Virus record (IMG/VR): IMGVR_UViG_3300028840_003477
Span: 1 to 45,275 of that record
Source of the DNA: a virus
DNA: 45,275 bases
Reading direction: 5' to 3' (one strand)
Shown: piece by piece, positions 39,048 through 45,275 of the stretch
Layout of the letters: every line of letters starts with the position of its first letter
Numbering within the stretch: the stretch's first letter is position 1
The notes under the pieces: generated by a model
Seen by the model: only the letters and a program-made list of their open reading frames with translations
Told to the model about the DNA's origin: nothing
Databases searched by the model: none
Program-made: the position numbers and the translations under genes

Positions 39048-41354
39048 ATGGCGCAACGACGATACGGACCAACCCGTGGAGCTGGCGTCACCATCACGGA
39101 GTTAGAGGGTGACAAGACCATCGAACCGGCGGCACTCGGTTTCGCTGGGTACGGGGGCATCCTCGAAAAAGGACCGGTGGGTGAGCTCATCGAGGCGACC
39201 AACAAAGCGCAGTTCGGGAAGAAGTGCGGGAGCTACATCGATGACTCCCTGCTTCCCGACGCAGCGTTGGGATACTACGACCTCGCCAACGGCGCCGGTG
39301 GGTTGCTCTTGGTCCGCGTGACGGACGGGAACGAAGAGCAAGCGGCTCACACCTTGTACGCCCGCAGAGGAGACGTTCTCACGCCGATGGGGACTCTCAA
39401 GGCGCACAACGGCGGAAGATGGGGCGGGAAGGAGTTGCGCTTCACGAAGGACTTGAGCGCAATCGGGAAGCTCACCGAGACGACCCTTGACACCGAAGAG
39501 ACGACCGCATTCGCAACCGACCAATGGAAGGGAGGTTACATCGAGCTTGCGGCCGTCGCCAACAAGCGATACGACATCGTGGGAAACACTTCGGCGGGCG
39601 TCATCACCGTCGCATCGGACGCGACGATGCTAACCGATCACGGAGGCGGCGCTGACCTGCGTTACTACCTCGTGCTAGAGAACGAAGCCAAGGCGGTGAG
39701 CTTCATGATCCAGGACGGGGAGGACAACCCCGATTCCGAGTTCAGCGTTTCAATCTACGTCGATGGGGCGTTCGTCAAAAAGTATCCGAACCTTTCGACC
39801 GACCCGACCAGCCCCAGGTATTGGGTGGACGTCATCAACGACGATTCGTCCAACTTCGAAGTCGAAGCCGTGGACCTCTGGACGGGCGCGCATACCGCCG
39901 ATGTCCGACCGGCGAATCACTACGGCAAGACGGCGACCGTGACGGCCACGGTCCTTACCGCCGACATCCACGACTTCGCGATCAACTCCCCCGGTGGCGG
40001 CAACCCAACGTTGACGTTGGGGTCCACGACCGATGCGATGGTCGCGCAGAAGATCACGATCACGATGACGGCCGCAACGACCGGCACGGCGGTTTCGGAC
40101 AAGTTCGGCGCCCTGGGCACGGTGACGCTGGGAACCCTCTTCAACCCTCCAGGTGCGGCAGGAGGTGCGCTCAAGAACAAGTGGGCACCTCCGTTCACGG
40201 TAACAGCGGGCGCAAGCCCGTTGGTTGCTACGGACACGCTCGTCATCAACTACAAGCCGTTCATCCTGGATAGCCTCATCGACGGGCGCCTGTACCCGAA
40301 TAAGCCCGAGTCCAAGCTGGAATACTACCGCATCGTGGACAACAACCACAGCTCGATTACCGTCGCAGACGGTTCGGACCTCACGATGAGCGGCGCAACT
40401 GGAAAATACTTCCTCGTGGAAGCGCCGCAAGAGTTGACGAACGGAAGAGACGGAAACGCAGACCTCGTGGACGCCGATTACACCCAGCAAGTCTGGGATA
40501 CCTCGAACAGCCCATTCAACCGAATCGTGAACCGCAACTTGGGTCTGGTGAAGTTCGCAACGCCGGGGATCACCTCAACGGCGGTCCAGAAGGCGGGCAT
40601 CGCTTACGCAGAAGCGAAGAACCACCAGTACAGGTACGAAGCGGCGTCCAACGTTCTCACCGAATCGGCCGCCATCACGCTCGTCAACGACACGCTTGGG
40701 CGCAACGACTTCGCGGTGATGAGTTTCCCAAGCTACGCATACGTGGCCGACCCGGAAGGAGGCGCGGAAGGGAAGCGCAAGCTCATCTCCTGTACCGGGA
40801 TGATCCACGGGCGGGAAGCGCGCATCGCGGCGGACTATACCGGGTACCACAAAGCTGAGGCCGGTATCGAAGCGACCCTGCCGGCGATTCTCGCGTTGCC
40901 GACCGGTGAAACGATTCTGGACGAAGAGTCGCTCAACCCGGTCGGAATCGGCGTCATCAAAAAGGTGAAGGGCAACTTCATCCTCTGGGGCGACCGCACG
41001 TTGTACCTCGATTCGAACTGGAAATGGAAGCATCAACGCGAGCAGATGAGCTACTACGAACACGTGCTCCAGGAGAACTTCGATTGGATCATCTTCGCGA
41101 TCAACGACCCGGTGGAGGAGAAGAAAGCCATCGTTTCCTTCCAGACCTACTTCTATCCGGAGTGGACGAAGCGGGCGCTGCGCGGCGATACCTTCGAAGA
41201 TTCGACCATCATCAAAATCGACGCTGAGAACAACACGGACGCGACCCGTGCGAGCGGTGACATGAACGCCGAAATCAAACTGCGGCTGGCCGATACGGTG
41301 GAGAGGTTCAATATCTTCATCGGCAAGCAGGGCATCTTCGAATCGGTGGGATAA
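39048..41354 (+). CDS. Contractile tail sheath protein, 768 aa
   Basis: SD AGGAGG. Opens GAGVTITELEGDKTIEPAAL, like other sheath proteins with an N-terminal strand that swaps into the neighbouring subunit. The middle (residues about 110-460) includes inserted beta-rich domains, typical of large sheaths. The C-terminal part has PFNRIVNRNLGLVKFATPGI, EATLPAILALPTGETILDEE, VGIGVIKKVKGNFILWGDRT and ends with a strand-forming VERFNIFIGKQGIFESVG, as in T4/PBSX-like sheaths. It makes the contractile outer cylinder around the tube encoded at 41884. The length is within the range of myovirus sheaths. Confidence 0.88.
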   Translation: MAQRRYGPTRGAGVTITELEGDKTIEPAALGFAGYGGILEKGPVGELIEATNKAQFGKKCGSYIDDSLLPDAALGYYDLANGAGGLLLVRVTDGNEEQAAHTLYARRGDVLTPMGTLKAHNGGRWGGKELRFTKDLSAIGKLTETTLDTEETTAFATDQWKGGYIELAAVANKRYDIVGNTSAGVITVASDATMLTDHGGGADLRYYLVLENEAKAVSFMIQDGEDNPDSEFSVSIYVDGAFVKKYPNLSTDPTSPRYWVDVINDDSSNFEVEAVDLWTGAHTADVRPANHYGKTATVTATVLTADIHDFAINSPGGGNPTLTLGSTTDAMVAQKITITMTAATTGTAVSDKFGALGTVTLGTLFNPPGAAGGALKNKWAPPFTVTAGASPLVATDTLVINYKPFILDSLIDGRLYPNKPESKLEYYRIVDNNHSSITVADGSDLTMSGATGKYFLVEAPQELTNGRDGNADLVDADYTQQVWDTSNSPFNRIVNRNLGLVKFATPGITSTAVQKAGIAYAEAKNHQYRYEAASNVLTESAAITLVNDTLGRNDFAVMSFPSYAYVADPEGGAEGKRKLISCTGMIHGREARIAADYTGYHKAEAGIEATLPAILALPTGETILDEESLNPVGIGVIKKVKGNFILWGDRTLYLDSNWKWKHQREQMSYYEHVLQENFDWIIFAINDPVEEKKAIVSFQTYFYPEWTKRALRGDTFEDSTIIKIDAENNTDATRASGDMNAEIKLRLADTVERFNIFIGKQGIFESVG

Positions 41355-41883: not shown

Positions 41884-42321
41884 ATGAAAGGCGCAATCCT
41901 GCCGGACCATATCCCGGTAAACAACTTCGAACTACTCGTCATCGGCCTTCCGCCTCTCACGCCGACTGAGGTCAGCGGAATCGAGGACGAACTGGTCACG
42001 ACGGACCTGCCCGACCGGACGAAGGCATCGGGCGGCGAGCGCAACCCAGGCGAGTTCACGATCATGCTCCCGATGCACCACACCGTGGAGCAAGCGGCGA
42101 TGGAGGTATGGTTCAAGGAAGGCCAACACCCCATCAGTCCCGGCTACAAGAAGCCGGGGACGCTCATCCACAAGTCGGGAAGCGGGAATGTCCTCAGGAC
42201 GTTCAGCTTGCTGGGCGCATTCGCGTCGAAGCGGGTACTGCCCGACCTGGAGATGGTGAACGAAGGAGAGATGGCGACCGTCGAGTGGACGATTTCATAC
42301 GACGATATTCTGCCCATCTAG
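41884..42321 (+). CDS. Tail tube protein
   Basis: SD AAGGAG. 145 residues with an N-terminal ILPDHIPVNNFELLVIGLPP and GEFTIMLPMHHTVEQAAMEV, ending with TVEWTISYDDILPI: the beta-barrel layout of contractile-tail tube proteins of the T4 gp19/XkdM type. The strand-rich ends stack ring to ring. Placed after the sheath gene and before the chaperone and tape measure genes, as in most myoviruses. The size is typical. Confidence 0.85.
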   Translation: MKGAILPDHIPVNNFELLVIGLPPLTPTEVSGIEDELVTTDLPDRTKASGGERNPGEFTIMLPMHHTVEQAAMEVWFKEGQHPISPGYKKPGTLIHKSGSGNVLRTFSLLGAFASKRVLPDLEMVNEGEMATVEWTISYDDILPI

Positions 42322-42376
42322 TGAACCCAAATACACGGTTGGGCCTATCATGGCTCCAAGCAAATGGAGGTGAACC

Positions 42377-43222
42377 GTGAACGATTCCGAGAAGACCGAA
42401 AGAGACCCAACAAAACCGAACTACGTGGTCACCACTCTTCAAGAGCAGGGACCCAAGCTCCCATTGGCCGTCGTGGACTCGAAAGGCGCCGCAGGAGACG
42501 CCATCGAGACCAAGCGATGGAACATGAGGGAGGAACGAGCGTTGGGGCAGTTGCGCGCCGAACATCCCGACCTCAACATGGCGCAGTACGCAAGCATGGT
42601 GATCGGTCGGATGTGCCCGAAGCTGGGTCCGCATACGTTCGACGAAAACACCAAGGCGGAAGTGAAGAACGTCCACATCGGGCAGATGCCGGCCGGGGAC
42701 GTTTTTTATGTGTACGTTTGGTTGCGGACGAAGGCGCTGGGTAACATCCTTCAACTGCGACCCAAATGCGGTGGGTGCAAAAACGAATTCGACTTCAAAG
42801 CGGACCTCAACACGCTAGAAATCCACATCGCGAAAACTCCCGAGGACGTGTTGTGGGAATACGAGTTGAAGGAACCGTTCCCAGCGCACGGCAAGGAGGT
42901 AAAGAAGCTCAAGTTGGGGGCGCCGATTTGGAACAGTTACGAGATGATGACCCACGGCGGTGATATCAACGTCGGAGAAACGAAGATGGAACTCATCAAG
43001 GGGAGTATCATTGGCGTGAACGACGGTCCGAACATCCTCGTGACGGACGCCGATTTGGACGAGATGGGGAAGCTGGACCTTGAGACTCTCACCGACCTTC
43101 TGGACCTCCACTTCTTAGGACCGAATATGATGGTGGAAGGAGACTGCCCGAAGTGTAGAACGGGTTTCAAGAAATCGATACCGTGGACATACGATGATTT
43201 TTTCGGCGTTTCTTCCCGATAG
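42377..43222 (+). CDS. Tail assembly chaperone, zero-frame product, 281 aa
   Basis: GTG start with GGAGGTG. The second half contains KALGNILQLRPKCGGCKNEF and later CPKCRTGFKKSIPWTYDDFF, two CxxC knuckles, in a T4 gp26-like baseplate/tail-chaperone outline (the 'R.KaLG..y.L...C..C' pattern). It lies between tube and tape measure, the place where tail chaperones with a -1 frameshift are coded in many phages. The zero frame stops at 43220-43222, only 18 nt after a slippery heptamer (43198-43204). Binds and shields the tape measure during tail assembly (family role). Confidence 0.8.
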   Translation: MNDSEKTERDPTKPNYVVTTLQEQGPKLPLAVVDSKGAAGDAIETKRWNMREERALGQLRAEHPDLNMAQYASMVIGRMCPKLGPHTFDENTKAEVKNVHIGQMPAGDVFYVYVWLRTKALGNILQLRPKCGGCKNEFDFKADLNTLEIHIAKTPEDVLWEYELKEPFPAHGKEVKKLKLGAPIWNSYEMMTHGGDINVGETKMELIKGSIIGVNDGPNILVTDADLDEMGKLDLETLTDLLDLHFLGPNMMVEGDCPKCRTGFKKSIPWTYDDFFGVSSR

Positions 43223-43243
43223 GTAAACCGGATGACCTTCGGG
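43198..43243 (+). promoter_or_regulatory. Programmed -1 ribosomal frameshift signal
   Basis: T TTT TTC in the zero frame at 43198-43204, exactly the X XXY YYZ pattern. A 10-nt spacer follows, then a stem-loop: CCCGATAGGT (43215-43224) with ACCTTCGGG (43235-43243), nine base pairs with one bulged T and a 10-base loop. The stem encloses the zero-frame stop codon. Confidence 0.75.
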
Positions 43244-43404
43244 AAGTAATGTTTTTGCTTACTTACTATATGAAGGGATGGAGTTACGACGAAATAATGG
43301 AGATGCCGACCGAAGAAAGAAAATGGTACATGAAGCGCCTCTATCAACAACTGAAGATGGAGGCGAACGCTTTGAAGGGGAAGGGAAAGCCCGGCACGAG
43401 GTAG
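43204..43404 (+). CDS. Tail chaperone -1 frame extension
   Basis: From 43204 the -1 frame is open into the chaperone gene and runs 66 codons to TAG (43402-43404): RRFFPIGKPDDLREVMFLLT and then YYMKGWSYDEIMEMPTEERK, a helical segment ending KGKGKPGTR. The outline 'll...mgWsYdEimeMp..ER..yl..L..Q' matches small proteins found just before tape measure genes in many myophages. Predicted fusion: 342 residues. A separate start at ATG 43249 has only a poor SD, so frameshifting is the better explanation. Confidence 0.7.
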   Translation, partial: RRFFPIGKPDDLREVMFLLTYYMKGWSYDEIMEMPTEERKWYMKRLYQQLKMEANALKGKGKPGTR

Positions 43405-43407
43405 ACG

Positions 43408-45275
43408 ATGGCGCTTGAGCGAGTAGGATTGGGCGGAAGGCTTGAGGTAGACACCCGGCAGGGCGTCAAGGCTTTTAGCCAAGCACGCGATGAGTTGGGC
43501 CGGTTTATCTCCTCCGCAAATCGTTTTGAGAGGCGTTTCGGTCGAATGGGCGCCGTGATGGATAAGATGTTCGCCAAATTCCAGATGGTGGGGCAAGGGA
43601 TCAAGCGCCTCAGCTCAGGCTTAATGAACTTAGGTTTCGCAATGGCGCCGTTGGGACTTGTGATGGGCGGCGCCATCAAGAAAGCGGCCGACTTCGAACA
43701 CCAGATGTCCGCCGTGGGCGCCATTGCGCGCGCAACGGGCGAAGAACTTGTCTTGATGACCCAAAAGGCCGAGCAGATGGGTATCAAGACCGCATTCACC
43801 GCTACGCAATCGGCCGAAGCAATGGAGCTACTCGCGATTGCCGGCGCGGACGTTACCCAGATCATGGCGGGCGTCGAAGGTGTTACCGACCTCGCTGCGG
43901 CGTCCGGAACCGACCTTGCGCGGTCCGCCGACATCGTCGCTCAGGCCGTCAAGATCATGCGCTTGGAATGGGAGGATACGTCCCATGTTGCGGACGTTTT
44001 CTCACTCGCTTCGGTGAGTGCGAATACGACCGTCCACGAGCTTGGTGAAGGTATGAAGTTCGTGGGTACGAAAGCGCGGTCAATGGGCGTGGGACTGGAA
44101 GAAACGGTCGCAACGCTTTCTCGACTCGCAGACGCCGGTTTGAAGGGCAGCATGGGCGGTACTGCGATGATGAATATGCTCGTCAAGCTCTCCAAGCCGC
44201 AAAGCAAATCGCGCAAGCTCATGGAGAAATGGGGGATTGAGCTAGACAACGCCGATGGGAGTCTCCGGAAAATCAGCGCGATTGTAGACGACTTCAATCA
44301 AAAAATTTCGCAAATCCCGAAAGCGTCCGAACGGGCGCGTGTCGCAAGTGAAATCTTCGGCATTCGAGGCGAACGCGCCTACAACGCTTTGGCTGCGGCC
44401 GGCAAGACGTCCGTACAGGAGCTGGAAAAGGCTCTCGTGGAGAGTACCGGCACGGCTACAGAGATGGCGTCCAAACGCCTCGATAACTTCCTGGGCAAGA
44501 TGACCCTCTTCAAGTCTTCGTTGGAGTCGCTCGCCATCGGAATCTTCACGCCGCTGTTCGCGGATATGAGCGGCACGGTAGGAGATATCACCGACGCGCT
44601 CAACGGCGTCCTCTTCGCTTTGAAGATTCTCAAGGACTCAGCGGAAGGAACCGGCACTAGCATCGGAGACGTCATCGAGGAAGTGGGAAAGAAATTCGAC
44701 GTGGAGATTGGCAATACCACGGTCGAAATAGCGAAGGGACTTTTGGACGGAATCAACATCGTCAAAGGCGCGATGTTAGGACTCATCCAGACCATCAAGG
44801 ATATGGGAGCCGGTTTGCGAGATACGATAGGCGAAAGTGGCGTGCGAGCGATGTTCAAGTTCATCGTCTCAATCGGTCTAATCGCCGGTGCGCTCACGCC
44901 GGTGATCTTGAGCCTCTTCATTTTCAAATTCGCCATCACCGGGATCATCGGGTTGGTTTCCGGATTGGGAACGATTCTGGCGGGACTCTTCTGGCCGCTC
45001 ACCATCGCTATCGGCGCCGCATCGGTCGCTATCATCGCGCTGAGAAATGAAAACCAAAACTTCTTCGAATCGGCGCGCACGGCGTACAACAAGATCAAAA
45101 TCGCGCTCACCGACCTACACGAGAACGTTCTCAAGCCTATTTGGGAAGGCATCAAGAGCATTTGGATTCCGCTTGCGCCTCAGCTGCGCGACATTTGGGT
45201 AACGACTATCGGTGAGATGAAATCGGACATCACCGAGTTATTCGATGATATGGACTTAGGAATCGAGACGACGAA
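43408..45275 (+). CDS. Tail tape measure protein (partial)
   Basis: ATG 43408, three bases after the -1-frame stop; it runs off the window after 622 full codons. The N-terminus is helical with KAADFEHQMSAVGAIARATG and MGIKTAFTATQSAEAMELLA, then GLEETVATLSRLADAGLKGS, which is the TP901-type tape-measure core. A hydrophobic, membrane-like region lies at about residues 488-540 (FIVSIGLIAGALTPVILSLF). It sets tail length and is a candidate for insertion into the host membrane. Its chaperone is the gene upstream. Confidence 0.9.
   Translation, partial: MALERVGLGGRLEVDTRQGVKAFSQARDELGRFISSANRFERRFGRMGAVMDKMFAKFQMVGQGIKRLSSGLMNLGFAMAPLGLVMGGAIKKAADFEHQMSAVGAIARATGEELVLMTQKAEQMGIKTAFTATQSAEAMELLAIAGADVTQIMAGVEGVTDLAAASGTDLARSADIVAQAVKIMRLEWEDTSHVADVFSLASVSANTTVHELGEGMKFVGTKARSMGVGLEETVATLSRLADAGLKGSMGGTAMMNMLVKLSKPQSKSRKLMEKWGIELDNADGSLRKISAIVDDFNQKISQIPKASERARVASEIFGIRGERAYNALAAAGKTSVQELEKALVESTGTATEMASKRLDNFLGKMTLFKSSLESLAIGIFTPLFADMSGTVGDITDALNGVLFALKILKDSAEGTGTSIGDVIEEVGKKFDVEIGNTTVEIAKGLLDGINIVKGAMLGLIQTIKDMGAGLRDTIGESGVRAMFKFIVSIGLIAGALTPVILSLFIFKFAITGIIGLVSGLGTILAGLFWPLTIAIGAASVAIIALRNENQNFFESARTAYNKIKIALTDLHENVLKPIWEGIKSIWIPLAPQLRDIWVTTIGEMKSDITELFDDMDLGIETT

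Follow-up and report, generated by a model that had tools for sequence, protein, structure and literature searches.

Putative -1 frameshift site in a tail assembly chaperone gene of the T4 gp26/gp51 family, conserved across a clade of uncultured phages

The window analysed here is the whole 45,275-nucleotide stretch of virus record IMGVR_UViG_3300028840_003477 from IMG/VR. This 45 kb sequence has a contractile-tail gene block at its end. The features relevant to the present analysis are as follows.

39048-41354, + strand: contractile tail sheath gene (phrog_23 tail sheath, E 9e-21)
41884-42321, + strand: tail tube protein gene, just 5' of the chaperone gene (weak Phage_T4_gp19 match, E 0.13; position after the sheath gene)
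42366-42373, + strand: Shine-Dalgarno-like GGAGGTGA, 5' of the GTG start of the chaperone gene, read from the sequence
42377-43222, + strand: zero-frame short chaperone (TAC-N, G-like), 281 aa, T4_baseplate family, two CxxC pairs
43198-43204, + strand: candidate slippery heptamer T TTT TTC, in zero-frame phase
43204-43404, + strand: -1 frame extension (T-like domain), 66 codons plus stop, predicted three-helix
43212-43246, + strand: predicted downstream hairpin, 12 pairs with a 1-nt bulge, after a 7-nt spacer, enclosing the zero-frame stop
43220-43222, + strand: zero-frame stop TAG
43408-45275, + strand: tape measure protein gene, extending beyond the window (PhageMin_Tail, E 1.7e-42; phrog_1533, tail length tape measure, E 1.2e-88)

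The gene order is thus tail tube (41884-42321), chaperone (42377-43404) and tape measure (from 43408), and this order is shared by the relatives described below. It is the order expected of a G/GT-type locus, with the chaperone gene between those of the major tail protein and the tape measure. The sheath protein (39048-41354) is unusually long at 768 residues; its match to the 496-position phrog_23 model covers residues 12-754, which suggests that large domains have been inserted.

The zero-frame protein belongs to the T4_baseplate family, PF12322 (E 1.7e-9, 38.1 bits against a Pfam cut-off of 24.5), as do 26 of 29 aligned members of its own family. The Phage_TAC_7 model (P2 gpE / Mu gp41 type) gave no match to the window protein, and matched five of the 29 members, with E values no higher than 0.1 and 8.5e-4 as the best. 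Two CxxC pairs, C131/C134 and C257/C260, are conserved in the family. AlphaFold2 generates a confident model (pLDDT 90.8), whose matches among viral models are T4-like baseplate hub assembly proteins. The PDB entry closest in structure is 2ob9, the HK97 tail assembly chaperone, with a weak Z of 5.8 over 94 residues, which is under the level that stands alone as proof; the next, unrelated entry is at 2.9. A search of the PDB with a sequence profile gave nothing credible.

The original prediction for this gene was a G/GT-type -1 frameshift, with T TTT TTC in zero-frame phase and a -1 frame open for 66 codons up to the tape measure gene. Both of these elements are present. The heptamer at 43198-43204 lies within GAT TTT TTC, base 43198 being the third base of GAT as read in the ORF at 42377-43222. 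The open stretch of the -1 frame covers 43198-43404, the 66 codons after the putative shift occupy 43204-43401, and the -1 ORF ends 3 bases before the ATG of the tape measure ORF at 43408. The window has just two TTTTTTC on its + strand.

Searches of viral, genome and cultured-phage collections with the zero-frame protein as a single query gave no relative. Relatives were obtained through the neighbouring tube protein, which gave 13 loci with the same neighbourhood, all 13 having a chaperone gene with the heptamer adjoining the tube gene. An alignment of these tube-linked chaperones then gave 38 loci, and removal of duplicates and of one truncated locus left 31 distinct junctions, namely the window and 30 IMG/VR relatives, with GC contents of 32-67%. 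The chaperone alignment found no relative among genome contigs, and the proteins of three relatives found no match among cultured phages.

Each of the 31 distinct loci has an in-phase NNT TTT TT(C/T), beyond which a homologous domain is encoded in the -1 frame. This bears directly on the reading that a sequencing or assembly error in the homopolymer has split a single gene. A single contig with a run of T could contain such an indel, but the 31 distinct loci, which come from many samples, share the frame relation, and each has a zero-frame stop and lacks a correcting indel; the probability of an artefact is negligible, and the reading was rejected as refuted by the relatives.

The pattern of conservation is also striking. 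Across the 253 codon columns of the alignment, a third base that is T in every locus is found only in two columns, both in the heptamer; the next best column has 58%. The codon before TTT encodes six different residues across the loci (N, S, G, D, V, R), and yet its third base is always T. Given each gene's own codon usage, the probability of NNT TTT in representatives with less than 50% identity has a log10 of -25; this figure of about 10^-25 assumes that the representatives are independent and serves as a guide only. By these comparisons, conservation of the heptamer is well above chance expectation. It is worth adding that in one distant relative (L048:3268-3397) the heptamer is kept and the zero frame continues for 120 nt beyond it, giving a short form with a long alternative C-terminus.

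Two other routes to a -1 product have to be considered. The -1 ORF could be a separate gene, translated from an internal start such as the ATG at 43249 and coupled to the zero-frame stop. This ATG is preceded by GGGAAG, and T4-like phages do encode short and long forms separately. However, in the relatives the corresponding codon is GTG, ATT, TCG, ACC, ACG or GCG, and, as expected of a G/GT-type locus, no start codon in the -1 frame is conserved across them. In one locus (L036) the first ATG, GTG or TTG comes only 231 nt downstream of the heptamer. Two separate genes would also leave the invariant wobble T of the heptamer unexplained, and we consider this arrangement very unlikely.

Equally improbable, in our judgement, is transcriptional slippage at the six-T run, which would create a mixed mRNA population and would involve no shift by the ribosome. 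The run is certainly present, and slippage on it would likewise yield -1 products; but six T is short for slippage, and the run is not extended, the third codon of the heptamer being TTC in 29 of the 31 loci. A hairpin at a spacing typical for ribosomal shifting also counts against it.

This hairpin had been placed at 43215-43243 as a nine-pair stem starting 10 nt after the heptamer. A hairpin enclosing the zero-frame stop is indeed predicted, but the proposed stem is only the inner part of a 12-pair structure at 43212-43246, and the minimum-energy form (-16.2 kcal/mol, z = -2.5) begins after a spacer of 7 nt. When the 21 aligned loci were analysed with RNAalifold, no consensus structure was obtained, probably because the position of the 3' arm differs between loci, and per-sequence folding was therefore used instead. 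Folding of the 44 nt 3' of the site in all 31 loci gave a mean z of -2.1, with 20 loci below -1 and 11 at or above it. In the same 21-sequence alignment, 75% of the stem cells are paired, as against 57.5% at best when the stem is slid along the alignment, and there are 12 double-change cells compared with 4.9 after shuffling (a number reached by none of 500 shuffles) and at most 7 in the slid controls; both frames are coding at the hairpin, and the proteins could account for part of this pairing. The hairpin is thus likely, with a certainty below that of the heptamer. It also appears to be less constant than the heptamer, as judged from the RNAalifold result and from the 11 loci with z at or above -1.

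The domain encoded in the -1 frame is predicted by AlphaFold2 to consist of helices at residues 11-24, 30-34 and 38-61 (pLDDT 81.5). The predicted fold has no significant viral match. Its sequence profile links it to phage T4. The profile scores 37.4 against the C-terminus of gp51, where the maximum of 200 column shuffles is 17.5; against other segments of gp51 and gp26 it reaches up to 26.6, and only where these overlap the gp51 C-terminus. Independently, phrog_634 (gp51-type, baseplate hub assembly catalyst) matches the -1 domains, the best member being a relative with E 1.2e-5. The long form would therefore carry the gp51-type C-terminal extension that distinguishes gp51 from gp26 within PF12322. 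The extension in the window also has a weak match, at 43237-43335, to DUF6760 (E 0.0041, under the cut-off). DUF6760 occurs in extracellular contractile injection systems.

Both gp26 and gp51 of T4 match PF12322 over the full model. When they are aligned to a fused profile of the window clade, gp26 aligns to the shift site only, and gp51 aligns through the C-terminus. Taken with the score that the -1 domain reaches at the C-terminus of gp51 and with the phrog_634 matches, this alignment indicates that the T4 counterpart of the short form is gp26 and that of the long form gp51. The two genes diverge in T4. In RB43 (L068:901-2194) and Klebsiella phage KLB15 (L069:901-2195), gp51-type and gp26-type genes are in tandem, overlapping and on the same strand, an arrangement that fits an origin by tandem duplication.

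On the basis of these observations we conclude, with high confidence, that one gene gives rise to a short and a long tail assembly chaperone by a -1 frameshift at T TTT TTC. The G/GT-type reading of the original prediction is borne out by the 31 loci, the lack of a conserved -1 start and the gene order; the membership of PF12322 and the domain correspondence with gp26 and gp51 place the predicted frameshift within the gp26/gp51 family, and comparative support for it is very strong. Direct observation covers the site and how well it is conserved, the homologies, and the order of the genes. That shifting occurs, with what efficiency, and that the products act as chaperones, we infer from systems studied elsewhere. 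The majority of ribosomes would make the 281-residue zero-frame protein, stopping at 43220 (the short form, compare lambda gpG and T4 gp26). A minority would pause at the hairpin 7 nt downstream, and both tRNA-Phe would move back by one base on T TTT TTC; reading in the -1 frame would then add the 66-residue helical domain (the long form, compare gpGT and T4 gp51). Following the lambda model, many short and few long copies would coat the tape measure protein, the extension would recruit tail tube subunits, and both forms would depart before the tail is completed.

Other members of the protein family have a different junction. In Streptomyces phages Alone3, GiJojo, pSt2308 and BRock and their IMG/VR relatives, the second domain is in the +1 (equivalently -2) frame, and the same is true of most members of a clade that includes the megaphage record LR756508 (L060). 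In two loci (L087 and L088) the +1 frame is closed after 4 codons, and in another (L090) it has a stop after 26 codons. The junction has TTT followed by TGG in 9 of 10 loci of the L060 clade, and TTT followed by CGN or CAG in 12 of 12 of the BRock clade. Many of these loci have no ATG, GTG or TTG before the second domain. By profile comparison, homology to the -1 domain is clear for the extension of the L060 clade (60.6, shuffled maximum 20.3) and less firm for that of the BRock clade (24.8, shuffled maximum 19.4). We therefore put forward +1/-2 recoding in these sister clades as a prediction.

Some details of these loci may be noted. In the BRock group (L058:2043, L057:2046, L059:2046, L015:8148 and IMG/VR L094-L107) the junction is CTN TTT CRN GAA CTC TRA in most, and several loci are without a standard start before the second domain. 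The BRock annotation treats the second part as a separate gene; the annotated small genes BRock gp135, Alone3 gp93 and GiJojo gp83 are probably part of a fusion. In the large-phage clade (L060 and L073-L089) the +1/-2 domain pair is at a conserved TTY TTT TGG CCT in most. In Streptococcus phage vB_SagM-GXN1 (L061:2480-3229) the PF12322 gene ends in TTC TTT CGT CCC CGA TTT GAC TAA, and 3' of it lies a +1-frame ORF that is not annotated and has a similar helical domain.

The PF12322 junction may thus be expressed in three ways: by -1 shifting at NNT TTT TTC in the window clade, by +1 (or -2) shifting at TTT TGG or TTT CRN in the L060 and BRock clades, and by two paralogous genes in T4. We lean slightly towards this reading, under which the direction of recoding would have switched in evolution with the short and long forms kept. 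These are other solutions found elsewhere, and so do not run counter to -1 shifting in the window clade. Along with the original prediction, relatives encoding the two parts from separate starts and without the heptamer had been proposed as the contrary outcome; neither was found in the window clade, where all 31 loci keep the in-phase heptamer.

A large clade of previously uncultured phages gains a firmly supported recoding site from this analysis, and domain homology connects gp26 and gp51 of T4 with frameshift chaperones encoded by a single gene. The frameshift trick itself is well known, and the mechanism proposed here would follow established lambda work; the +1/-2 junction in two sister clades is the less expected part. 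If it is confirmed, the family would offer a natural series on how a recoding site changes direction, and on how recoding is replaced by gene duplication with both products kept. The results also suggest that a small ORF lying 5' of a tape measure gene, BRock gp135 for example, is probably no gene in its own right.

The -1 frameshift of tail assembly chaperones is conserved in long-tailed phages (Xu, Hendrix and Duda 2004; PMC5009743), with T4 listed as an exception (PMC5009743), and the G/GT model has been reviewed (Atkins et al. 2016, PMC5009743). Compared with lambda gpG/gpGT, the zero-frame protein of the window is a PF12322 protein with two CxxC pairs and not a member of the lambda gpG family, and its site has a predicted hairpin 3' of it.

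The resemblance to T4 is in the proteins. Like the window protein, gp26 and gp51 belong to PF12322; gp26 ends where the window zero frame ends, and gp51 resembles the putative long form in that its C-terminal domain is a homologue of the -1 extension. Gene organisation differs: T4 has two paralogous genes on opposite strands, the window one gene with a predicted frameshift. Vladimirov, Gautam and Davidson (2022) reportedly described how T4-like phages make the chaperones of their TAC genes without frameshifting. Given this prior publication, the reading of gp26/gp51 is not presented as novel.

The HF1-group haloviruses have chaperones with a proposed +1 frameshift at TTT CGC (PMC7230728). They share with the window a two-part chaperone gene 5' of the tape measure gene, and differ in the direction of the shift; the TTT CGN-type motif is also found in the BRock-group relatives of the window's family. 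The haloviral chaperones of HF2 gave no match when tested against PF12322.

Phage Adele has a -1 frameshift chaperone locus of a type found in Vandenendeviridae and Andersonviridae myoviruses (PMC12846349). Its motif is GTTTTT and not TTTTTTC, and the phage lineages are different, but it resembles the window in having a contractile tail, a poly-T slippery motif ending the first ORF, and a -1 frame that is uninterrupted in all relatives.
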